Shown here: one piece after another, positions 35,232-47,436 of the stretch | Position numbering within the stretch: position 1 is the first letter of the stretch | Layout of the letters: each line of letters begins with the position of its first letter | DNA from: Planctomycetales bacterium | GTDB lineage: Bacteria > Planctomycetota > Planctomycetia > Isosphaerales > Isosphaeraceae | Direction of reading: 5' to 3' | Length of the DNA stretch: 47,436 bases | NCBI GenBank assembly: GCA_027449865.1 | Contig: DAIDKV010000015.1 | Location: forward strand, 1 to 47,436 | The notes under the pieces: generated by a model | What the model was told of the DNA's origin: nothing | The model's input: only the letters and a program-made list of their open reading frames with translations | Databases searched by the model: none | Made by a program: the position numbers and the translations under genes

Positions 35232-36464
35232 TTGATCCCGATGACATCGCCGACGCCGATCGAGCGGCCGGATCCCTGGAGCCGCGCGGCGTCGGACGCC
35301 TCGACACCGCCCCCACCGACGACGCCCCCCTCGGTCTTCACCTTTCCAAACCGGATTCTCTTCGGCGCCGGTGCACTTGCCGCTTTAGCCGAGGAACTGA
35401 AGCGGCTGGGAGTCACCCGGCCGATGATCGTCACCGACCCCGGCGTGATCGCGGCGGGGCTGGTCGACCGGGCGATCGGGGGGTTTGATCCGGCTCCGGT
35501 CGTTTTTTCGGGTGTCTCGGCGAATCCGACCGAGGCCGATGTTCAGAACGGTCTGGCCGTTTATCGTGAGACGGAATGCGACGGACTGGTCGCGATCGGC
35601 GGAGGGAGCCCGATCGACGCCGCGAAAGCGATCCGGCTGCTCGTCACCCACCCCGGCGAGCTGGCCGACTATGACCTGACGACCGGCGGGCTGGAACGTA
35701 TTCGGCCCGGGATGCCGCCGATGCTCGCCGTTCCGACGACCGCCGGGACCGGCAGCGAGGCCGGTCGTGGGACGTTGATTCAGCTTCCGTCGACCGGCAG
35801 GAAGACGATCGCGCTGAGCCCGCACCTGCTCCCGAGCGCCGCGATCTGCGACCCGGAACTGACCCTCGGTCTTCCGCCCGCCCTCACCGCGGCGACCGGG
35901 ATGGACGCGCTGACGCACTGTGTCGAGAGCTTTCTCTCGACGACATTCCACCCGATCTGCGACGGGATCGCGGTGGAGGGATTGCGGTCGATTTTCCAGG
36001 GGCTGGAGACGGCGGTCCACGACGGCGGCAACCTCGACGCGCGCACGTCGATGATGATGGGCTCGCTGCTGGGCGGTATCAGCTTCCACAAGGGGCTTGG
36101 CGTGGTCCATTCGCTCTCGCACGCCCTGGGCGCCGAGGGTCGCGTGCATCACGGGACGCTCAACGCGATTCTCCTGCCGCACTCGCTCCGATTCAACCGG
36201 GCCACGGCCTCGCCGAGGATCGCCGAGCTGGCGCGTCGGATGGGACTCGGCCGGAGCGGCGACGCCGAGGGGCATCTGATCACGCTGACCGAACTGCTCC
36301 TGGCTCGTCTCCCGCTGCCCCGCCGCCTCGGTGACCTCGACGGACTTTCCCGCGAGCGCATCCCGCATTATGCCCGCCTGGCCCTGCTCGACCATTGCCA
36401 CCGAACGAACCCTCGGCCTTGCACCGTCGCCGACTTCGAGGAGTTGCTGACGCGGGCCTGGTAG
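35232..36464 (+). CDS. Iron-containing alcohol dehydrogenase
   Basis: A 410-residue enzyme of the type III (iron-dependent) alcohol dehydrogenase family. GGGSPIDAAKAI is the NAD(P)-binding motif and PTTAGTGSEAG follows. The metal ligands are present: D and H in GMDALTHCVE, and the two His of HSLSHALGAEGRVHHG. Family members interconvert alcohols and aldehydes or ketones with NAD(P). The first 35 residues are Pro/Thr-rich and outside the conserved fold, so ATG 35232 might be too early, but no better start is evident. Substrate cannot be predicted. Confidence 0.9.
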   Translation: MIPMTSPTPIERPDPWSRAASDASTPPPPTTPPSVFTFPNRILFGAGALAALAEELKRLGVTRPMIVTDPGVIAAGLVDRAIGGFDPAPVVFSGVSANPTEADVQNGLAVYRETECDGLVAIGGGSPIDAAKAIRLLVTHPGELADYDLTTGGLERIRPGMPPMLAVPTTAGTGSEAGRGTLIQLPSTGRKTIALSPHLLPSAAICDPELTLGLPPALTAATGMDALTHCVESFLSTTFHPICDGIAVEGLRSIFQGLETAVHDGGNLDARTSMMMGSLLGGISFHKGLGVVHSLSHALGAEGRVHHGTLNAILLPHSLRFNRATASPRIAELARRMGLGRSGDAEGHLITLTELLLARLPLPRRLGDLDGLSRERIPHYARLALLDHCHRTNPRPCTVADFEELLTRAW

Positions 36465-36596
36465 TTCCCTGGTCCTCGAGTCCCTTCGTCCCTGGATTCG
36501 CGTGCCTCTTCACCATACCTCCCCAGGTGAATAGAAAAGGCTGGAGATTCGGACCACTCCGCTTAATCAGTGGACTCAATGACAAGGACTAAGTCG

Positions 36597-37619
36597 GTGA
36601 CGTACGACGCAATCCTGATCGTGGGCTTCGGGGGCCCCGAGAAGCCCGACGACGTGATGCCGTTCCTCGAAAACGTGACGCGAGGGCGGAACATCCCGCG
36701 CGAGCGGTTGCTCGAGGTCGCCGAGCATTATCATCACTTCGGCGGCGTCAGCCCGATCAACGCCCAGGTTCGCGAGCTGATCGGGGCGCTCCGGCCCGAG
36801 CTGGAACGTCAGGGCGTCGATCTGCCGATCTACTGGGGCAATCGCAACTGGCACCCGATGCTCGCCGATACGGTGGCCGAAATGGTCCGCGACGGCCGGA
36901 AGCGAGCCATCGGACTCGTCCTGGCGGCTTACAGCTCCTATTCCAGTTGCCGGCAGTATCGCGAGGATGTCGAGCGGGCGCGGCAGGCCATCGGCGAGGC
37001 GGCGCCGATCGTCGACAAGATCCGGGTCTTCTACAATCATCCCGACTTCATCGAGGCGAACGCCGATCGCGTTCGGTCCGCGCTCGGGGAGATCGTGGAA
37101 GAACGCCGCGATTCGGCTCGACTGGCGTTCACCGCGCACAGCATCCCGAAATCGATGGCCGACCATTGCGATTACGAACGCCAGCTCAAGGAGACCTGCC
37201 GGCTGGTCGCCGAGGCGGTGGGCGTCGGGACCGATCGTTGGCGGCTCGTTTATCAGAGTCGGAGCGGTCGGCCTCAGGATCCCTGGCTCGAACCGGATAT
37301 TCTCGATCACCTCCGAGCGCTCAACGAGGAAGGCGTGCGGGATGTCGTTGTTCACCCGGTCGGGTTCCTCTCGGATCACATGGAAGTCCTGTTCGACCTC
37401 GACGAGGAGGCGAAGCAACTCGCGGACTCGCTCGGGATGAGGATGATTCGGTCGGGGTCGGTCGGTGTGCATCCTCGATTTGTTGAGATGCTGGTCGAGC
37501 TGATCCGTGAGCGGATTCATGAAAATGGGGAGCGTCGGGCGGTTGGACGGTTTGGAGCGAATCACGATGTCTGCCCGGTCGGCTGTTGCCCGGCGCCGGC
37601 CCGTCCGCCGGGACGTTGA
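36597..37619 (+). CDS. hemH: Ferrochelatase (coproporphyrin-type) with C-terminal Cys cluster
   Basis: A 340-residue enzyme that inserts ferrous iron into a porphyrin to make heme. FGGPEKPDDVMPFLENVTRG, AAYSSYSSCRQYREDV, FTAHSIPKSM (catalytic His) and PVGFLSDHMEVLFDLD (catalytic Glu) are all conserved. The SSYSSCRQYRED form and the C-terminal CPVGCC are like the actinobacterial enzymes, in which an internal Cys and three C-terminal Cys hold a [2Fe-2S] cluster, so I expect a cluster here. I chose GTG 36597 because AAGGA is nine bases upstream and family members start with YDAIL; ATG 36579 is in frame. It is 107 bases before the chemosensory operon. Confidence 0.9.
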   Translation: MTYDAILIVGFGGPEKPDDVMPFLENVTRGRNIPRERLLEVAEHYHHFGGVSPINAQVRELIGALRPELERQGVDLPIYWGNRNWHPMLADTVAEMVRDGRKRAIGLVLAAYSSYSSCRQYREDVERARQAIGEAAPIVDKIRVFYNHPDFIEANADRVRSALGEIVEERRDSARLAFTAHSIPKSMADHCDYERQLKETCRLVAEAVGVGTDRWRLVYQSRSGRPQDPWLEPDILDHLRALNEEGVRDVVVHPVGFLSDHMEVLFDLDEEAKQLADSLGMRMIRSGSVGVHPRFVEMLVELIRERIHENGERRAVGRFGANHDVCPVGCCPAPARPPGR

Positions 37620-37727
37620 TCGTCGGAGCGGCAATCTGGACAGGGCCCTCTGGCAGGGCGTATCGTAGTTTCGTTCGTCGCGAGGCAGAAACGAATTCCG
37701 CAATAGCGGTCAAGGGAGATTGGGCCG

Positions 37728-38894
37728 ATGGCATCTCGTCGCATCTTGCTGGTCGAGGATAGCTCCACCATGCGCCGGATGCTCTCGATGAAGCTCCAGG
37801 ACGAAGGGTATGAGATCGCCGTCGCGGAGGACGGTCGGAAAGGGCTCGCCGCGGCGGCCGAGGAGCCGCGTCCGGATCTGATCCTCACCGACTTCGAGAT
37901 GCCCGAGATGGACGGCGCCGGGCTCTGCAAGGCGGTGAAGGCCGACCAGGAACTTCGAGCCATCCCGATCTTGCTTTTGACGACTCTCGCGGAGATCGAG
38001 AGCAAGGTGGCGGGGCTGGAGGCCGGTGCCGACGATTATATCCTCAAGCCCAAGAGCCCGGACGACTTCCGCGAGATGTTCAAGCGGATCGAGGCGCATC
38101 TTCGGATTGCCGACCTTCGCCGCGACCTGGCGGAGCAGAACCGTCTGCTCGCGGCAGCCCACAAGAAGCTGACGTTCGAGCTGGACCTGGCTCGGAAGGT
38201 CCAGCTTGCGATGATGCCCCGGCCGCCCAAGCCGCGTGGGGTGCTCCGGCTGGCGATCCGGTACACCCCGGCCAACCAGCTCGGCGGCGATGTTTACGAC
38301 ATTTATCGGCTGGACAACAGCCGGCTGGGCATCCTGGTGGCCGACGTCTCCGGTCACGGAGTCAACTCGGCGATGCTCTCGGGGATGGTCAAGGCGCTGG
38401 CGGCACCGCTCTCGATCGCGGTGCTGGAGCCGGGTGAGCTGCTCGCCGGGCTGGACGTCGCGACCGAGCAATACTTTCCCGAAGGCTATTTTTGCACGGG
38501 GTTTTACCTGATTGCCGACGAGGAGACGGGCCTGCTTCGATACGCGGGAGTCGGCCATCCTCCTGGGATCGTCGTCGGGCCGAACGGGCCGAGAACGTTG
38601 CCATCGAACCCGGGGATGCTGGGGATTGGGATGGTCGATGGGACCGCGGGCGCTTCGGATCGGCTGGAGCCTGGCGAGTCGCTGGTGATTTACACCGATG
38701 GACTGACCGACGCGATGGATCCCTCCGACGTTCTTTTCGGCGAGGAGCGGCTCAAGACGGTGCTTCAGAGCCACCACGGGTCCGACCCGACCCAGATCCT
38801 CGACCAGGTTGACGCCGCGCTGAAGCAGCACACTTCTCCGGGGACCCCGGCCGACGACATCAACATCATCGTGCTCCAGTATCCGGCCGGCTGA
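37728..38894 (+). CDS. Receiver domain-PP2C phosphatase (RsbU-like)
   Basis: A 388-residue protein. Residues 5-122 are a response-regulator receiver with the acidic pair E10-D11, phosphoacceptor D55 (LTDFEMPEMDG), T85/T86 and K107. A coiled-coil linker (about 125-160, LRRDLAEQNRLLAAAHKKL) joins it to a PPM/SpoIIE-type phosphatase (about 175-385) with metal-binding GGDVYD, VADVSGHG, YTDGLTDA and PADDINIIV. RsbU-type phosphatases dephosphorylate STAS-domain anti-anti-sigma proteins. Here CheA could phosphorylate the receiver and so control the phosphatase. It is the first gene of the Che operon and is followed by a STAS gene, which is the likely substrate. Confidence 0.9.
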   Translation: MASRRILLVEDSSTMRRMLSMKLQDEGYEIAVAEDGRKGLAAAAEEPRPDLILTDFEMPEMDGAGLCKAVKADQELRAIPILLLTTLAEIESKVAGLEAGADDYILKPKSPDDFREMFKRIEAHLRIADLRRDLAEQNRLLAAAHKKLTFELDLARKVQLAMMPRPPKPRGVLRLAIRYTPANQLGGDVYDIYRLDNSRLGILVADVSGHGVNSAMLSGMVKALAAPLSIAVLEPGELLAGLDVATEQYFPEGYFCTGFYLIADEETGLLRYAGVGHPPGIVVGPNGPRTLPSNPGMLGIGMVDGTAGASDRLEPGESLVIYTDGLTDAMDPSDVLFGEERLKTVLQSHHGSDPTQILDQVDAALKQHTSPGTPADDINIIVLQYPAG

Positions 38895-39006
38895 CCTGGC
38901 TGACCTCCGATTCTCGGAGATGCTCCCCAACCCGCGCCGGGCGTGATAGAATGCCGGTGGAAGTTGTGTCGATGTCCCCCGGTCCGTCACCGAGGAGCCG
39001 CGAGGC

Positions 39007-39300
39007 GTGGAGTTCTCGGAAGGCCATCCCCATTTTATCAGCGGCCCGGTCACGCTTTACGAGGTGGCGACGGTCCGCGAGAGTTTGCGGACGGCGCTGG
39101 CCGAGGGGGAGCCGCCGATTCGACTCGACCTGGGCGACTCGGGCCCGTGGGACATCGCCGGATTGCAGCTCCTGATCTCCTGCGTCAAGGGGGGCCGGCT
39201 CGAGGATCGGGAGGTTCGGATCGTCCACGTTCCGGCCGCCTGTGCCGAGCTGGCCCGTCGATACGGGCTGGAAGACTGGCTGCGATCGGTCGAGGAGTGA
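39007..39300 (+). CDS. STAS-domain protein
   Basis: A 97-residue single STAS domain starting at GTG 39007. The sequence GPVTLYEVATVRESLRTALA, RLDLGDSGPWDIAGLQLLIS and VRIVHVPAACAELARRYGLE follows the anti-sigma-antagonist fold (MlaB/SpoIIAA-like). At the position where SpoIIAA has the phosphorylated D-S-S-G, this protein has D-I-A-G, so it has no obvious phosphoacceptor and may act as a non-phosphorylatable binding module. It lies between the PP2C gene and the CheY-like gene of the same operon. Alternative: a scaffold of the array. Confidence 0.85.
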   Translation: MEFSEGHPHFISGPVTLYEVATVRESLRTALAEGEPPIRLDLGDSGPWDIAGLQLLISCVKGGRLEDREVRIVHVPAACAELARRYGLEDWLRSVEE

Positions 39301-39371
39301 GTCCCACCCCGCCACCGGCCACCGGAAGGCCGCCTGCCTGAGCCGAGTTGAGTCGAGTCTCTGAGAACGTC

Positions 39372-39737
39372 ATGAGCAAGACGATTGTGCATGCTGATGA
39401 CAGCGCCTCGGTGCGTCGGTGGGTGGCCGAACAGCTCAGCGACCCGGAGCTGAAGGTCATCTCCGTCGCCGATGGCGAGGCTGCGCTCTCGGTATTGAAG
39501 GAGACGGCCTGCGACCTCCTGTTGACCGATCTGGAGATGCCGAACCTCGACGGGCTGGGGCTGGTGGCCGCGGTGCGCGATCTTCCGATGCACCGATTCT
39601 TGCCGGTGCTGGTCCTTTCGAGTCATCAACCGACGGAGTACGACCCGGAGGTTCGGCAGGGAATCACCGGATGGCTGGTCAAGCCGATCGCACCGGACAA
39701 CCTGAGACGATGGATTCGGCGGCTCCTGCCGCGGTGA
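39372..39737 (+). CDS. CheY-like response regulator
   Basis: A 121-residue stand-alone receiver starting at ATG 39372. Acidic pair D9-D10, phosphoacceptor D53 (LTDLEMPNLDG), S83-S84 at the switch Thr position, and the conserved Lys of GWLVKPI. It has no output domain, so it acts by binding partners, such as a flagellar switch or another protein. It is the most probable direct target of the CheA encoded next. No flagellar gene is present here, so the output cannot be assigned from this window. Confidence 0.9.
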   Translation: MSKTIVHADDSASVRRWVAEQLSDPELKVISVADGEAALSVLKETACDLLLTDLEMPNLDGLGLVAAVRDLPMHRFLPVLVLSSHQPTEYDPEVRQGITGWLVKPIAPDNLRRWIRRLLPR

Positions 39738-39884
39738 GCGGCGGACGTCGGCCTTCGAGTCGAGCCGATTCGTGCAAGTTTGCGCGCCGCAATGTAGACT
39801 GGTGAAGATCCGAAGAGTGTGCAAGGCCATCGCCGGTTGGGGTGATTGCCTGGATCCGAGATTGGGGCTCGTCGGCGGGAGGGG

Positions 39885-42176
39885 GTGGACGCCTTGTCGG
39901 GCAGCTCGGACGACCGATTCCGGGAGATGTTCTACGAGGAGGCGCGCGAGCTCCTCATCAGCCTGGAAGAAGGGCTGATGGACCTGGAGCGCCGGCAGGG
40001 CGACCGCGCGCATCTCGACCGGACGTTCCGCGCGGCTCATAGCCTCAAGGGTGCCGCGGCGATGGTGGGGCTGGCGGCGCTCGCCGAGTTCACCCATGGG
40101 ATCGAGGCCGTTCTCGACCGGATTCGAGCCGGGACGATGGCGGTCGACTCCGAGATCATCACGACCCTTCTGGAGTCTCGGGATCATCTCGCGGCGATGG
40201 TCGAGTCGGAATCGGCCGGCTCGCCGATCCCGGCGTCGTCCGAGCTGACGCATCGCCTTCAGGATCTGCTCCGGAATCCTGGGCCGAGCGGTCCCGGAGG
40301 TGGCGGCGGCGGGACATCCGCGCCGCCGGCCGCACCCTCGGCACCGGCTTCGCCTCCGCCAGCCGCCCCACCAGCCGCTCCGGCGCCGCCGGCCGAGGCG
40401 AAAGCCTCGGCATCGAAGGCATCGCGCAAGCCAAGGTCGCCCCGCAAGTCGAAGAAGATGGCGGCGGCCGAAGGCAAGCTGGCGTTCTCGGCTCCCGTGG
40501 GGGATGGCGGCGGCATCCCCTCGTATCGCATCCACTTTACGCCTGGTCCCGACACCTTCCGACGCGGGATCACACCGACCGGAACCTTCGAGGAACTCGC
40601 CGAGCTGGGGCCGATCCGGGTCGAGACCGACCCCGAGGTGGTCCCTCCCCTCGACGAGATCGATCCCGAGCGCTGCTATCTGAGCTGGACGATTCACCTG
40701 GAAACCTCGGCCGACCTCGCCCAGATTCGCGAGGTCTTTCTGTTCTTCACCGAGGACAGCATCGTCTCGATGGAGCGTCGAGACGCGGAGGGGCGCTGGC
40801 TTGTCGTCGGTGAGGAGCCGTCCGCCTCGCCGACCAGCCGCATCGCGGCCCCAGCTTCGGTGCCGGTAGCGGCTCCGGTGGCGCCTCCGGTTGTCGAGGC
40901 GGCCGCGCCGACGCAGGCGGCGAACGGCGCGCCCCAATCCGCGGCCCCCGCGCCTCGGACGCCGCCCCGAACTACCGCCCGCATCCGGGTCGACGCCGCG
41001 CAGCTCGACGATCTGGTCGGCCTGGCCGGCGAGCTTGCGGTCCTCTCCGACAACCTGATGGGCATCCGCGAACTCCCCGCGGTCACGCAGTGGCTCCACG
41101 CGCTGGAGTCGCTTCAGCGCGTCAGTCGCGAGATCCGAGACACGACGCTCGACCTGCGGATGGTCCCGGTTGACGAACTCTTCTCGCGGTTTCCCCGCGT
41201 CGTCCGCGACCTCGCGGATCGGTCGGGGAAGGAGATCGAGCTTCGGATCGTCGGCCAGGAGACGAAGCTCGACCGAACGATTGTCGAGCGGCTCGGCGAT
41301 CCGATGGTTCACCTGATCCGAAACGCCGTGGATCACGCCCTGGAGCCCCCGGCCGAGCGATTGGAAAAAGGGAAGCCGAGAGGCGGCCGGATCACGCTTT
41401 CGGCCGGGCACGAGGGAGACCGAGTCGCGGTCCGGGTCGAGGACGACGGCCGGGGGCTCGACCGCGATCGGATCGTCCGCAAGGGGATCGCGCTGGGGAT
41501 GGTCGCGCCCGGAACCTCTCCCGACGACCCAAGAGTCGTCAGCCTGATCTTCGAGCCGGGCTTCTCGACCCGAGACACCGTCAGCGAGCTCTCGGGGCGC
41601 GGGGTCGGGCTCGACGTCGTTCGCGACGCCGTTCGTGCCCTGCGCGGGACGGTCACCGTCGAGAGCACGCCCGGCAAGGGAACGGCGTTCATCTTTCGAT
41701 TGCCGCTGACTCTCGCCCTGATCGACGGCCTGCTCGTCGAGACGGCCGGGGGCAAATACGTGGTCCCGCTGGCGCAGGTCGAGGAGTGCGTGGCGCTCAA
41801 CGGCCAGCGATCGGCACTGGCCGACGACCGGCCCTGCATCGCCGTTCGGGGTGAGCTGGTGCCGATGGTCTCGCTCCGTAACCTTTTCCAGGCCGATGGC
41901 CCGCTCCCGCCCCGTCAGGAACTGTTGCTGACCCGCCACGCCGGGCAGCGGGTTGGCGTCGCCGTTGACCGGTTGCTGGGGCGGGTGCAGGCCGTGATTC
42001 AGTCGCTGGGCGAGGGGCTGCACGACGTCGGCCGCTTCTCCGGCGCCACGATCCTCGGCGACGGCTCCGTCTCCTTGATCCTCGACCTGTCGGCTCTGGT
42101 GTCCGAATCACGATTCGCCGAGCAGAGCGCCCGTATGTCGCCCTCGACCGGCGGGAGGGCGGAGATTATCCGATGA
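39885..42176 (+). CDS. cheA: Chemotaxis-type histidine kinase CheA
   Basis: A 763-residue CheA counted from GTG 39885; TTG 39894 is better spaced from GGGAGG (39878-39883). HPt domain with phospho-His H52 ([13 protein letters not shown]). A Pro/Ala linker (131-175) and a Lys/Arg stretch (176-191) lead to a domain at about 213-310 ([38 protein letters not shown]), which is in the place of P2. A second linker precedes the dimerisation helices, then the ATPase (N480 in [23 protein letters not shown], and RGVGLDVV) and a CheW-like C-terminus. It has no receiver of its own. Its stop overlaps the chemoreceptor start (ATGA), so they are translationally coupled. Confidence 0.93.
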
Positions 42177-44044
42177 GAATCAGCCTACGCAATCAACTCT
42201 GGTTCGTCGCCGTCCTGTTCGCGGTTGTGCCGGCCGTCGCCATCACCCTGGTGGCCTTCCGGCCCAACGATGCGTTCAAGGAGAAGGAGAAGATTCTCCT
42301 CCAGCAGGCCTCCGACCTCGCCTCGCGCGAGATCCAGAAGGTACTTTCCGAGAAACTCAGTGAGAAGGGCGTCGCGCCCAAGCAGTGGACGCCCGACGCC
42401 CAGACCCGTGAGGCGTTCGTCCAGGCGTTCCGCTCGTCGGCCGTCTACTTCGAACTCGACGGGGTCCAGATGGTGCTGATCAACCCGATCGAGCGCGTGC
42501 TGGCCTCGTACAAGAGCACGCCCGGCGGCTACGACACCAATGCGCCCCCAGGCGCCCTCGACGCGATCGACAGCCCCCGATACTCCGAGCTTTTCAAGGC
42601 CAGCTACAGCCACAAGCGAGGAGCCAGCGAGGTGCCGGCCAACACGACGAAGCCCGCCGAGCTGGTCGGCTACGCGCACGTCGAGCTGGGCGACCTTCCC
42701 GACGCCAACGCCAACCAGCACAGCTTCGAGGTCCTCACGATCGTTCCGCAGCGGGTCGCCTACGCGAGCATTTACGACAACCAGGCCTGGATTCTCCTGA
42801 TCCTCGCCGTTGTCCTGGTGCTGGCGGCCATCAGCGGGTATTTCTACGGCCGCCGATTCGTCCGTCCACTCCTGGAAATCATCGACGTGACCCGGGGCCT
42901 TCAGGACGGGCACCTCTACAACCGAGCCGAGGTCGGCCGGCGCGATGAACTGGGCGAGCTCGCCCGCCAGCTCAACACCGTGATCGACAAGTGGTCAGAG
43001 CTGATCAGCCAGATCCGGACCATGACCAGCTCGGTCACCACCGCGAGCAAGGAACTCGATTCGAGCGCCTACCAGCTTGCTCAGGGCTCGTCCGAACAGG
43101 CGTCGACGCTCCAGGAGATCGCGGGGACCATTCAATCGGTCGACGCCTCGGTCGGTCGGAACGCCCAGCACGCCAAGGAAACCGCCCGGATGGCCAACGA
43201 CGCCAGCTCGCAGGCCGAGAAGGGCGGCGACGCCGTGAGAGAGACGGTCGACGCGATGCGGCAGATCACCCAGAAGATCCTCGTGGTCGACGACATCGCC
43301 TATCAGACCAACCTGCTCGCCCTGAACGCCGCCATCGAGGCCGCCCGCGCGGGAACCCACGGCAAGGGGTTCGCGGTGGTCGCCGGTGAGGTTCGCAAGC
43401 TCGCCGAGCGGAGCCAGGCCGCCGCCCAGCAGATCAGCGACCTCGCCAAGCGGAGCGTCGCGATTGCCGAGAACGCCGGCACCCTGCTCGATCAGACCGT
43501 CCCCATGATCCGGGACACCTCGCACCTGATCAACGAGATCGCCGTCGCCTCGCAGGAGCAGATGACCGCGATCCGAGAGATCAACATGGGCGTCAGCCAG
43601 CTTGAGGAGGTCGTCCAGCAGAACGCCGCGGCCAGTCATGAACTGGCCGGGACCTCCAGCGACCTGGCCGGCCACTCGACCAGCCTCCAGGACAAGGTCG
43701 GTTTCTTCCAGCTCGATGGCCACGACAACGGATACTACGGCGCGGAGCCTCCCGGCCGTTCGCCCCGGGGCCATGTCCACGGCCAGGGCCCCGGGATCGC
43801 CCTCGGAGCCGTGGCGCCGAGGCGGCTCGGCTCCAGCCTGCCGCGTTCGTCCGCCGGTTCTGGCTCGATGGGCGACGGCTCGCACGGCGGCGTTCACCCG
43901 TCCGCCGGCCACGGGACCACGGCCCATCCGGCGCTCCCGCAGCACCCGGCTCCCACGCCTCCCTCGGGCAACCACGTGGGCGGACCCAGGGGTGGCGTGG
44001 TCGTTAACCTTGACGACGACGATAATTTCGAGCGATTCTCATAA
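42173..44044 (+). CDS. Methyl-accepting chemotaxis protein with CheR-docking-like tail
   Basis: A 623-residue receptor. TM1 is at about 10-28 and TM2 at about 204-225 ([18 protein letters not shown]), with an extracytoplasmic sensing part of about 175 residues of no recognised fold. HAMP follows, then the signalling helices with the hairpin [20 protein letters not shown] and [20 protein letters not shown]. The Glu/Gln-rich methylation regions are present. After the signalling domain, about 100 residues of Gly/His/Pro-rich tether end in [15 protein letters not shown] fits the CheR/CheB docking pattern (aromatic-x-x-aromatic), with one extra Ser. The ligand is unknown. Its start overlaps the cheA stop. 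Confidence 0.94.
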
Positions 44045-44046
44045 GG

Positions 44047-44169
44047 ATGAAACCCGTCCGCGGTCGCGCTCCCGTCCCCGATGGTCCCGAAACCGGAAGC
44101 CGAAGACCGAGGCCAACCGCGGCCCGCTCGCCGCGACCCGTCCCGGCCGAGAACCATGAAGGTGCATGA
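44047..44169 (+). CDS. Possible 40-residue basic leader ORF between receptor and cheW
   Basis: ATG 44047 opens three bases after the receptor stop, with the TAAGG overlapping that stop. The 40-codon frame (MKPVRGRAPVPDGPETGSRR, and so on, rich in Arg and Pro) ends in TGA at 44167-44169, overlapping the cheW start region ATGATG. The tight coupling of both ends suggests translational relay to cheW. It may equally be chance in high-GC DNA. Confidence 0.3.
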   Translation: MKPVRGRAPVPDGPETGSRRPRPTAARSPRPVPAENHEGA

Positions 44170-44672
44170 TGGTGGATCTCGTCACAGAAAATGATGTAGA
44201 ATCCGATCGTGATCGCTCGCAGTCGTTCGTTGTCTTTCGGCTGGGCAAGGAGGGGTACGCCCTGGAAGTGATGCGCGTCCAGGAAGTTCTCGATATGCAA
44301 TCGTTGACCGAAGTACCCGGCGGCCCAAAATATCTGCTAGGGGTCATCAACCTCCGCGGACACGTGGTGCCGGTTTATGACCTTCGGATGCCCTTCGGAT
44401 TAAGCAGGGCGGCCCAGCCGTCTCAGGTTCCCTCGGTTCTGATCGTGGAGACCCAGCTTGGCGAGAGCCAGGTCACGGGTCTGGTGGTGGATCGAGTTTC
44501 CGACGTGCTGGAATTCTCGCCCGAGGAGGTTCAGCCGCCGCCGCAACTTGGTCTGGGAAAAGCTACTCCGTTCGTTCGCGGGCTGATCCGTCACCAGGAG
44601 GGGTTTCTGCTCGTACTGGACGTGGATCGAGTTTTGTCGACTCTGGGGTCGTTGAATGGTGAGGGGGTCTGA
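44166..44672 (+). CDS. cheW: Chemotaxis coupling protein CheW
   Basis: A 168-residue CheW. SFVVFRLGKEGYALEVMRVQ, EVPGGPKYLLGVINLRGHVV and VYDLRMPFGL are the hallmarks of the CheW fold (two five-stranded beta-barrels); the conserved NLRG is present. CheW links the receptor hairpin to CheA. ATG 44166 follows AAGG; the adjacent ATG 44169 is also possible. No extra domain. The stop is one base before the next gene. Confidence 0.95.
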   Translation: MMVDLVTENDVESDRDRSQSFVVFRLGKEGYALEVMRVQEVLDMQSLTEVPGGPKYLLGVINLRGHVVPVYDLRMPFGLSRAAQPSQVPSVLIVETQLGESQVTGLVVDRVSDVLEFSPEEVQPPPQLGLGKATPFVRGLIRHQEGFLLVLDVDRVLSTLGSLNGEGV

Positions 44673-44673
44673 C

Positions 44674-45534
44674 GTGGCGACATCGGGAGCGCTGCCACCC
44701 TCGCCTGAGGTCGATGCGTGGTCCGAGAAGGACTTCGCGCCGATTACGGCGTTCTTGCGCACCCAGATCGGGATCTCGCTGGAGCCGCATCGGATGGGGC
44801 TCTTGCAGGCGCGGCTTCGGTCTCGGGTGCAGGTGCGCGGCTACTCCAGCTTCGCCCAGTTCCACGATCAGGTGTTGCGGGCCGACCCCACGGGATGGGG
44901 AACGCAGTTGCTGATCGACCTGAGCACGGTCAACCACACCTCGTTTTTCCGAGAGCCGGCCCACTTCGCGTTCATGGCCGAGAAAGTGGTGGGGTGGCTG
45001 AAGGAGTCGCCAGGTTCGACGATCCGGCTCTGGTCGGCGGGGTGTTCCTCGGGCCAGGAACCGTACAGCATGGCGATGGTTCTGGCCGAGACGCTTCCGC
45101 CGCAGCAGTTGCCCAAGATCGAGATCTGGGCCAGCGACCTCTCGCTGGAGATGCTCAAGGTCGCCGCGACGGCGATCTACAACGCGAGGGACGTCCAGGG
45201 GATCTCGCCGGCCCGGCTCCGCCGCTTCTTCATGCTGGGCAAGGGCCCGCGCGAGGGCTCCTTCCGGATGGTCCCCGAGGTTCGCGACCTGGTCAAGTTC
45301 CGTCACATCGATCTCCGGACCCCGAACTGGGCCGTCCCGTCGGACTTGCCGATGATCTTCTGCCGCAATGTCTCGATCTACTTCGCCGAGGACGAACGGA
45401 TCGCCCTGATCGAGCGGCTGGCCCATCACCTCCGGCCCGGCGGATGGCTGGTGATGGGCAATGGCGAGATCCTTCCGGGCAGTGCACCGTCGTTGCGCAA
45501 GCATTCGCCCTCGTTGTTCCAGAAAGAAGGTTGA
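44674..45534 (+). CDS. cheR: Chemotaxis protein methyltransferase CheR
   Basis: A 286-residue CheR. The helical N-terminal domain includes DFAPITAFLRTQIGISLEPH and the SAM-dependent domain includes the motif WSAGCSSGQEPYSMAM, then IWASDLSLEMLKVA and MIFCRNVSIYFAEDERIAL. It methylates glutamates of the receptor with S-adenosylmethionine. GTG 44674 is chosen because GAGGGG lies eight bases upstream; ATG 44656 is in frame but overlaps cheW. It lacks a C-terminal TPR extension. The receptor tail pentapeptide should dock on its beta-subdomain. Confidence 0.95.
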   Translation: MATSGALPPSPEVDAWSEKDFAPITAFLRTQIGISLEPHRMGLLQARLRSRVQVRGYSSFAQFHDQVLRADPTGWGTQLLIDLSTVNHTSFFREPAHFAFMAEKVVGWLKESPGSTIRLWSAGCSSGQEPYSMAMVLAETLPPQQLPKIEIWASDLSLEMLKVAATAIYNARDVQGISPARLRRFFMLGKGPREGSFRMVPEVRDLVKFRHIDLRTPNWAVPSDLPMIFCRNVSIYFAEDERIALIERLAHHLRPGGWLVMGNGEILPGSAPSLRKHSPSLFQKEG

Positions 45535-45540
45535 CCGCCC

Positions 45541-46674
45541 ATGAACCCCGGCGGCCGAAACCCGACCGGAACGCGCCTGGCCGAGCCCGGATCGATCGAG
45601 GTGCTGGTCGTCGACGACAGCGCCGTGATCCGGCAACGGCTTCGATCGATCATCGAATCCGATCGACGCTTTCACGTCGTTCTCGCCGCCGACCCGTATG
45701 AGGCCGTCGAGCGGCTGAAGGTCTCCGTTCCCGGCGTGATCGTGCTGGACGTCGAGATGCCGAGGATGGATGGCCTGACCTTCCTCAAGAAGCTGATGCG
45801 CCAGCACCCGATGCCGGTGGTCCTCTGCACGACCCAGGCGGAGCGTGCCGTCACGGCGCTGGAGATGGGGGCGGTCGAGGTGATCTCCAAGCCCGACTGG
45901 AGCCAGGCGACGCGGCTGGCCGAGTGGTCGCAAACCCTGCTGGAGAGCATCCGGAACGCGGCGCAGGCGGGCCGGCTGGCGATCCAGGAGGATCGACCGG
46001 GAACGTCGGCCTCGGATCGCCGGTACTCGGCCGACGTCGTCCTGCCCCGGCATCCGTACGTCCCGCACAATGGGCCGAGCGAGCGGATCATCGCGATTGG
46101 GATCAGTACCGGCGGCGTCCAGGCGCTGCACCGAATGATCCCGGCGTTCAGCCCGTCGACGCCCGGCCTCGTGATCGTCCAGCACATGCCGGCCGAGTTC
46201 ATCCCGGCCTTCGCCCGCCGGCTCGGCGACGACCCCGAGGTCAAGATTGAGATCGCGGTGGCGCGGCAGCACGAGCCGATCCGCCCTGGCCGGGCGTTGA
46301 TTGTCCCGGGCGAGAAGCACGGACTGATCCGCCGCGCCGGCGCCGGATACCGCATCGAGCTGGTCGACGGCCCGCCGGTTTGCCGGCATCGGCCGAGCGT
46401 CGAGGTGCTGTTTCGGTCCGCGGCGCAGGCCGCCGGCCCAAACGCGGCGGGTGTCATCATGACCGGGATGCGCGACGACGGCGCGATTGGCCTCCTGGAA
46501 ATGCGGGAGGCTGGCGCGATGACGATCGCGCAGAACGAGGCGACCTGCACGGTCTTCGGGATGCCTCGGGAGGCGATCCGCCGAGGAGCCGCGAAGGCGG
46601 TCGTCCCGCTCGACGCGATCCCCGCGACCCTGATGGGATGGGCCGCCAGCTCGGATACGGGAACCTGGCACTGA
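45541..46674 (+). CDS. cheB: Chemotaxis response regulator methylesterase CheB
   Basis: A 377-residue CheB. The receiver (about 20-135) has D25-D26, phosphoacceptor D70 (VLDVEMPRMDG), T98 and K117. The esterase domain (about 180-370) has the catalytic triad S189 (GISTGG), H215 (QHMP) and D313 (TGMRDDG). It hydrolyses receptor methyl esters and amides and is activated by CheA phosphorylation, giving adaptation with CheR. The linker between domains is longer and more Arg-rich than in E. coli. It starts six bases after the cheR stop and is the last gene of the operon. Confidence 0.95.
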   Translation: MNPGGRNPTGTRLAEPGSIEVLVVDDSAVIRQRLRSIIESDRRFHVVLAADPYEAVERLKVSVPGVIVLDVEMPRMDGLTFLKKLMRQHPMPVVLCTTQAERAVTALEMGAVEVISKPDWSQATRLAEWSQTLLESIRNAAQAGRLAIQEDRPGTSASDRRYSADVVLPRHPYVPHNGPSERIIAIGISTGGVQALHRMIPAFSPSTPGLVIVQHMPAEFIPAFARRLGDDPEVKIEIAVARQHEPIRPGRALIVPGEKHGLIRRAGAGYRIELVDGPPVCRHRPSVEVLFRSAAQAAGPNAAGVIMTGMRDDGAIGLLEMREAGAMTIAQNEATCTVFGMPREAIRRGAAKAVVPLDAIPATLMGWAASSDTGTWH

Positions 46675-46734
46675 GGGCCTGGGCTGGGAAACGGCCGATC
46701 TCTCTCCGTTCCGAGGGCCGGCGATCGACCAGGA

Positions 46735-47436
46735 TCATCGGCCCGCGTAGCAGGTACTGTTGCCGGTGGCGTTGGTGATCGACGTCAGCCGGCCGTTGCC
46801 GTCGTACACGCCGGACATCACCGTGTGGCCCAGCGCGTCGGTGATCGAGGTCAGGAAGTGCGCCTGGGTGGTGCTGTAGCCGAAGCTCGTCACGTGGCCG
46901 TCGCGGTCGGTCACGGATTGCAGGTCGCCCGCGGCCGTGTACGCATACACCAGACTGTTGCCATTGGGATCGGTGATCGAGGTGATCCGCCCGGCGGAGT
47001 CGCGCACAAACGTCACGGCGCGGCCGGTGTTGGAGTAGATCCCGTTATCCTGGAAGGTCAGGGTATTGCCGTGGCGATCGGACTCGGTGAGCACCTGGCC
47101 GGTGTCGGCGGCGAAGGTGGTGGCGAGGCCGGCCTGATCGGTGAGCGTGTAGGTGTCGCCAAACGCCGGATTGGCCGGGTTGTAATCGTCGAGGCCGACG
47201 TAGTATTCCTGTGTCCCGGGGATCTGCGAGAGGTCGGCCGAGGGCACGGCCAGTGTATCGGTGACGCCCGGATCGGGGCGGAAGTAAGGTGTATAGTATT
47301 CGATCACCAGCGCGAACGGCCCGCTGTTGTACACCGGCTGGGGATCGAAGGTGAAGCCTTCGACCGTCCCGTCGGGTTTGGTGATCAGGACCCGCGTTCC
47401 ACCCTCGAACGGCGTCCCGTCGCTGAGGGTACCCAT
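46735..47436 (-). CDS. RHS-repeat protein, C-terminal fragment (continues beyond right edge)
   Basis: Minus-strand frame open from the window edge to TGA at 46735. It carries YD/RHS repeats: GRITSITDPNGNSLVYAY, TAAGDLQSVTDRDGHVTSFG, and GVYDGNGRLTSITNATGNST. Such repeats form the hollow shell of RHS toxins and similar surface proteins, which normally end in a core motif and a variable toxin tip. Here the frame simply stops after STCYAGR, with no core or tip. The first Met visible at 47436 need not be the true start, since the gene can extend further upstream. It may be a truncated remnant or a non-toxic secreted repeat protein. Confidence 0.75.
   Translation of the reverse strand: MGTLSDGTPFEGGTRVLITKPDGTVEGFTFDPQPVYNSGPFALVIEYYTPYFRPDPGVTDTLAVPSADLSQIPGTQEYYVGLDDYNPANPAFGDTYTLTDQAGLATTFAADTGQVLTESDRHGNTLTFQDNGIYSNTGRAVTFVRDSAGRITSITDPNGNSLVYAYTAAGDLQSVTDRDGHVTSFGYSTTQAHFLTSITDALGHTVMSGVYDGNGRLTSITNATGNSTCYAGR

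Follow-up and report, generated by a model that had tools for sequence, protein, structure and literature searches.

The window analysed here, a stretch of 47,436 nucleotides forming contig C15 of an 8.48 Mb Planctomycetales genome of the family Isosphaeraceae (labelled G000), carries on its + strand at 37728-46674 a chemosensory operon headed by genes for a receiver-PP2C protein (RR-PP2C hereafter) and a protein consisting only of a STAS domain. An earlier interpretation made from the letters alone (the sequence-only reading) had placed eight genes in one order on one strand, which coordinates and the expected Pfam domains confirm:

37728-38894, + strand: RR-PP2C, 388 amino acids (Response_reg 87.6 bits, SpoIIE 136.2 bits)
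39007-39300, + strand: STAS-only protein, 97 amino acids, CheS-like (STAS_2 48.7 bits; motif WDIAGLQLL)
39348-39737, + strand: CheY-like single receiver (D17, D18, D61, S91 and K112 conserved in 29/29 rows)
39846-42176, + strand: CheA (Hpt with H65, P2-like middle region by eye, HATPase_c, CheW; H-kinase_dim below cut-off)
42173-44044, + strand: chemoreceptor (HAMP, MCPsignal; membrane spans by eye only)
44166-44672, + strand: CheW coupling protein (Pfam domain match)
44656-45534, + strand: CheR methyltransferase (Pfam domain match)
45541-46674, + strand: CheB methylesterase with receiver (domain matches)

The full set of CheA, CheW, chemoreceptor, CheR and CheB places the operon among Che systems, and the phospho-accepting histidine of CheA was kept in 27 of 28 aligned rows, the remaining row being a gap. 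A Pfam search found no HATPase_c_2 kinase/anti-sigma gene among the eight. The several overlaps or near-overlaps described earlier hold for CheA and the chemoreceptor (4 bases), CheW and CheR (17 bases) and, as close spacing, CheR and CheB (6 bases apart); only the first two are true overlaps, and the other intergenic gaps span 47-121 bases. A 988-amino-acid open frame on the - strand (39057-42023), antisense to STAS, CheY and CheA, is most likely a mirror frame in G+C-rich DNA and not a gene.

Conservation was assessed in 45 Isosphaeraceae genomes, the window's own included. Orthologues of RR-PP2C (at least 60% identity) occurred in 31 of these, the operon STAS in 30, and operon-type CheA in 30 by its core, with G017 added by an N-terminal part on a cut contig. 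All three were found together in 29 genomes, bearing out the association of RR-PP2C and STAS with this Che cluster that the sequence-only reading had put forward, and none of the three in 12; co-occurrence of RR-PP2C with CheA gave a Fisher p of 3e-7, a value that ignores genome kinship and serves as a guide only. Where the set is partial, G006 has STAS and CheA side by side with RR-PP2C absent and no CheY adjoining, G018 has CheA alone on a 6,558-base contig that seems to stop inside cheA, and G011 and G043 have RR-PP2C and lack both STAS and operon-type CheA. Of 30 loci retrieved by way of the STAS gene in relatives, 21 have the complete eight-gene, one-strand order (one of these, L043, has RR-PP2C cut by a contig end), which indicates conservation far beyond chance; the other nine show contig-end cuts, rearrangement or, in G006, reduction to STAS-CheA. 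Such loci are shared with Singulisphaera acidiphila, Paludisphaera soli and several Isosphaeraceae metagenome-assembled genomes, and the accessible text of an earlier study already notes Che genes in P. borealis, S. acidiphila and strain SH-PL62 (PMC5352709). Of the 29 genomes that have RR-PP2C as well as STAS, 25 (the window and 24 relatives) carry them as same-strand neighbours; in G032 each gene sits at a contig end, which hides whether they adjoin. The cluster of G034 is split, with RR-PP2C-STAS-CheY about 13 kb from CheA-chemoreceptor-CheW-CheR-CheB and on the other strand. Extra pieces were seen in two genomes (L045 4744-5187 and 7820-8149; L062 7727-8047): G001 has, ahead of RR-PP2C, another receiver gene that resembles the RR-PP2C receiver at 61%, and both G001 and G002 have an additional piece resembling the start of CheA ahead of cheA.

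RR-PP2C comprises a receiver (residues 6-118) and a SpoIIE-type PP2C domain (197-385); the PP2C match extends to residue 385 of 388, and the protein lacks the C-terminal kinase domain of a three-domain receiver-PP2C-kinase architecture. Receiver residues D11, D55, T85 and K107 and PP2C residues D188, D206, D324, D376 and D377 were invariant in all 24 aligned proteins (the window's and those of 23 relatives), the PP2C aspartates presumably holding active-site roles. Given this invariance, both the receiver and the phosphatase half look active. An AlphaFold model gave a good receiver and a single long helix (residues 111-161) leading from it towards the PP2C half, which was itself poorly modelled (mean predicted local distance difference test, pLDDT, 62.8). 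The best solved-structure match was PDB 3eq2, a P. aeruginosa 'probable two-component response regulator' (118.5 bits, profile 4-330), which shares the arrangement of a receiver followed by a PP2C-like domain and which we take to be RssB. RssB has a degenerate PP2C domain; RR-PP2C scored 115.1 bits with the NCBIfam RssB model against a cut-off of 700, and membership of that family was rejected. A phylum-wide search with RR-PP2C (392 genomes, E 1e-50) matched seven genomes, namely the window's own, one family member and five others at 32-36% identity. No orthologue outside Isosphaeraceae was found in this sample at that threshold, and no clear Che genes appeared in the stretches fetched around the five outside matches, that of L179 being merely 3.9 kb long. 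One CheA match (25%, 42 bits) in a 191-amino-acid open reading frame at the edge of L175 looked by eye like an ordinary histidine kinase.

Two further comparisons connect RR-PP2C with chemosensory clusters. The G043 orthologue (60% identity) is encoded directly ahead of a Che cluster whose counterpart is not the window operon but the cluster on contig C274 of G000 (CheW 55%, chemoreceptor 64%, CheR 61%, a cut cheA 48%). Proteins of this RR-PP2C type thus stand at the head of two distinct Che clusters, which speaks for a CheA as the phosphodonor. In plasmid clusters of Agrobacterium leguminum (L171, 2375-3517) and Rhizobium sp. 11515TR (L163, 2733-3893), a two-domain response regulator likewise fills the slot before STAS-CheY-CheA; its output domain is HD_5 whereas that of the window protein is PP2C, as if this slot held an output regulator.

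No published description of the window operon was found in a search at the level of titles and abstracts, which left most subscription papers outside its reach, and the nearest precedent is Che1 of Shewanella with CrsR and CrsA. The accessible text of PMC9855816 describes an S. oneidensis Che operon that encodes CrsR and the STAS protein CrsA and that 'could be' or 'probably' is engaged in RpoS control, and that of a related paper calls Che1 'involved' in it (PMC9796306). The resemblance lies in a Che operon with a receiver-PP2C regulator and a STAS protein, tied by its authors to RpoS control rather than chemotaxis (PMC9855816, PMC6482189). As far as the available portions of these papers go, however, CrsR, like HsbR, possesses a third, kinase/anti-sigma domain (PMC6482189) whereas RR-PP2C ends after PP2C; CrsA is a phosphorylated antagonist whereas the window STAS lacks an acceptor serine; and che1 includes cheD. 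The HptB-HsbR-HsbA pathway of P. aeruginosa is similar in that a phosphorelay targets a receiver-PP2C protein, but differs, in the accessible text, in the kinase domain of HsbR, the phosphorylation of HsbA at Ser56 and the use of HptB rather than a CheA array as donor (PMC6482189). Taken together, the intact residues, the co-occurrence, the G043 linkage, the rhizobial slot and the Che1/CrsR precedent support, as far as sequence comparison can, the proposal of the sequence-only reading that RR-PP2C may be an output of the CheA array.

One may postulate instead that RR-PP2C only happens to adjoin the cluster and has a kinase and a promoter to itself, while the che genes beginning with STAS form a separate unit with CheY as output. 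Several observations fit this scenario and weigh against a coupling of RR-PP2C to the array. The gap between RR-PP2C and STAS is 112 bases in the window and 97-819 bases in 24 relatives (stop codon counted), and across such gaps RR-PP2C may or may not be co-transcribed with the other genes; RR-PP2C exists without operon-type CheA or STAS in G011; and in three of the 29 genomes with both genes it stands apart from STAS. In G029 the two are about 15 kb apart on opposite strands, and in two members of the window's genus (G016, G019) the 3 kb or more downstream of RR-PP2C, which begin with a prepilin-like gene, contain no STAS. The full conservation of CheY (29/29 rows) points the same way, as does a promoter-like site immediately before RR-PP2C (37637-37666), although it comes from a scan near chance level: over 36400-47000 there were three promoter-like sites (1.1 expected) and six terminator-like sites (4.4 expected), which is uninformative. 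For what that scan is worth, it detected neither kind of site between RR-PP2C and STAS. The family-wide co-occurrence with operon-type CheA, the independent linkage of the G043 orthologue to a second Che cluster and the receiver-HD regulators in the equivalent slot of two rhizobial clusters all argue for a functional tie, and we consider it unlikely that RR-PP2C is only a neighbour.

The second question concerns the STAS protein, which the sequence-only reading had taken for a component of a partner switch. Its observation that DIAG replaces DSSG was correct, with isoleucine at the phospho-acceptor column; in 31 family rows this column holds leucine (19), isoleucine (8) or threonine (4) and never serine. 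A tblastn search of a plasmid collection with the operon STAS alone gave three weak matches, one of which (Aeromonas) lies between cheY and cheA and opened the comparison with CheS. The same collection searched with CheA returned 451 records, and among 16 regions hand-picked from the best 60 of these, 14 Che clusters had a STAS gene or a small open reading frame in its place. The order was STAS-CheY-CheA in eight of the 14 (ten counting two hypothetical frames), CheY-STAS-CheA in two and STAS-CheA in one, with STAS on the other strand in one; the STAS-CheY-CheA records came from S. meliloti, Azospirillum, Rhizobium, Shinella (two), Sphingomonas, Methylosinus and Vibrio. The frames from R. tumorigenes and A. 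leguminum are annotated as hypothetical and for that reason do not count among the 15 comparison rows described below; both show FVQL by eye, the latter (L171) scoring 21.1 bits with STAS_2 against a cut-off of 29.2 and the former having no Pfam match. The PLSDB gene tables, which are incomplete, list no STAS gene in the M. radiotolerans and Desulfolutivibrio clusters and no PP2C gene in 12 annotated regions, a weak negative for that reason; in the four other regions the single match, of receiver length, was the receiver-HD protein of L163. Within the phylum, a search with the family STAS profile matched nine of 294 genomes, the window's own included. Wider stretches were fetched for six of the eight others, G273 and G183 staying short loci; three of the six, from planctomycetes outside the family (G283, G160, G079), were che-linked with the order STAS-CheY-CheA, and no Che genes showed around the STAS match in the wider stretches of G094, G328 and G177.

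The S. meliloti record CP090106.1 encodes a STAS protein of 97 amino acids, a response regulator, cheA, cheW, cheR, cheB, a response regulator and cheD, an order that fits CheS as reviewed, in its accessible text, by PMC12654446. In the CheS-CheY1-CheA system, as in the window, a 97-amino-acid STAS-only protein is encoded directly upstream of cheY and cheA (PMC12654446), the acceptor column lacks serine, and glutamine occupies column 54; the S. meliloti cluster differs in its second response regulator, in having cheD and fliF downstream and in that no PP2C gene is listed in the stretch, and its CheS is a mere 13% identical to the window STAS. The record itself (L168), labelled pSymB and 3.7 Mb long, bears a che-fliF cluster expected on the S. 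meliloti chromosome, and its label may be wrong.

We then aligned 51 STAS proteins, 34 of them che-linked (19 from the family and 15 others) and 17 not, the latter comprising nine from the window's own genome and eight partner-switch types. Glutamine occupied column 54 in all 34 che-linked proteins and in none of the 17 others, and the acceptor serine was present in one of 34 versus 16 of 17. In a maximum-likelihood tree all 34 che-linked proteins fell on one side of a branch (support 92/86). Since the operon STAS groups with che-linked proteins, its missing acceptor serine is expected; what the sequence-only reading had regarded as unusual is the usual state among them (33 of 34). The STAS-CheA pair of G006, which lacks RR-PP2C, further supports CheA as the STAS partner.

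This grouping is not without difficulties. Seven of the 15 outside che-linked rows were found through the family profile, which favours glutamine (the remaining eight were taken from genes annotated next to cheA); the branch support falls short of the program's mark of 95/80; and when 12 motif columns were removed the group became inexact (two changes), although a single group was not rejected (approximately unbiased test, p-AU 0.29). S. meliloti CheS, beyond its low identity, scored only 7.9 bits with the family profile, while RsbV scored 30.4 bits, above nine of the 15 outside che-linked proteins. The operon STAS was modelled with a STAS fold (pLDDT 90) whose closest solved folds are TM1442 and RsbV. 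These fold matches, together with the adjacency of RR-PP2C and STAS in most genomes that have both, would suit a different explanation, in which the two proteins form a sigma-controlling partner switch whose phosphatase is switched by CheA. So would two distant planctomycetes (G110, G194), where an RR-PP2C 34-36% identical to that of the window sits with a STAS gene (DSTG or DSSG), a gene RsbW-like by eye and a second STAS gene (DSSG), with no clear Che gene beside it; those STAS proteins, by contrast, retain the serine-bearing motif. Such a row of STAS, RsbW-like, RR-PP2C and STAS genes (L175 7198-9764 and L177 6236-8871, two genomes of one distant planctomycete family) adjoins a gene resembling glycogen phosphorylase by eye. 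Against a partner switch within the operon stand the acceptor column, which lacks serine in 31 of 31 family rows, the absence of a HATPase_c_2 match from the operon, the occurrence of STAS and CheA without RR-PP2C (G006) and of RR-PP2C without STAS (G011, G043), and the column-54 glutamine and tree that place STAS with che-linked proteins. We therefore judge this explanation quite unlikely. Of the overall interpretation first given to this operon, RR-PP2C as a CheA output is supported, whereas STAS as a partner-switch part is not, as the protein groups with che-linked STAS proteins that mostly lie by cheY-cheA with no PP2C gene seen. The operon STAS is thus best described, from its sequence, as che-linked and CheS-like, and we do not claim it as an orthologue of S. 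meliloti CheS.

If RR-PP2C dephosphorylates a partner, that partner may be encoded elsewhere in the genome. A HATPase_c_2 search of G000 gave 26 matches, seven above the cut-off, and the best two, which were examined, are clear receiver-HATPase_c_2 proteins (L136 6134-6976 and L137 6151-7038, on contigs C9 and C49), which may be RsbW-like kinases that a receiver controls; no STAS or PP2C gene was apparent in the stretches fetched around them. The genome also has nine other PF01740 STAS matches, eight with an acceptor serine. These receiver-HATPase_c_2 and serine-bearing STAS proteins are natural candidates for the kinase and substrate of RR-PP2C, with no positional link to the operon, and a partner switch in trans is possible.

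A fourth scenario, in which the operon is a standard cluster for flagellar chemotaxis plus accessory genes, draws on the FHIPEP (FlhA/SctV) match present in 42 of the 45 family genomes, FlhA being the sole flagellar gene searched. The G000 gene (G000:C161:62292-64316) scored 760.9 bits for FlhA (cut-off 772.1) versus 509.4 for SctV, so it is nearer FlhA, and it sits with FlhF-like and FliA/WhiG-type genes. However, the family is reported, in the accessible text of PMC5352709, to produce no motile swarmer cells and to carry few genes for flagella, and G000 has two CheA genes besides that of the window: the C274 gene, whose cluster includes CheD, and a gene of the CheA-receiver type on C65, neighboured by two CheW genes and a CheR-TPR gene. 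A flagellar role for the window operon is accordingly very improbable. The window ends, at 46735-47436 on the - strand, with a frame that leaves it and shows RHS/YD-like repeats by eye.

The model we favour, with somewhat better than even confidence, is that RR-PP2C is the dedicated output of the array and acts in trans, and that the operon STAS is a CheS-like accessory of CheA and not a substrate of the PP2C domain. The chemoreceptor, CheW and CheA would form the array and CheR and CheB would adapt it, functions that are well established for these families. CheA would phosphorylate the RR-PP2C receiver, and the long helix could relay the signal to the PP2C domain. That domain may then dephosphorylate a serine-phosphorylated protein from another locus, the simplest candidates being the eight other STAS proteins with an acceptor serine. 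From kinship and gene order, STAS and CheY would tune or drain CheA phosphotransfer, much as CheS and CheY1 do in Sinorhizobium.

In sum, the operon encodes a chemosensory array, akin to those that guide swimming in other bacteria, whose probable output is a phosphatase and whose STAS protein is CheS-like. When a STAS gene occurs among che genes, its product can be an accessory of CheA, and its presence is on its own no evidence for sigma control, a likely misreading that the comparison corrects; the glutamine and serine columns offer a simple discriminator of the two kinds of STAS protein (tested on 51 proteins). More speculatively, and with our own expectation leaning against it, the array may have been rewired, in a family described as having no motile swarmer cells, such that its sole dedicated output is a serine phosphatase and a non-phosphorylatable CheS-like STAS steers CheA phosphate either to a sink CheY or to the slot regulator (PP2C here, HD-type in the rhizobial clusters); a partner switch lacking a kinase within the operon would thereby receive an adapting input tuned by methylation. 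The operon offers a case, open to experimental test, in which a chemosensory array may drive a protein phosphatase and not a motor.

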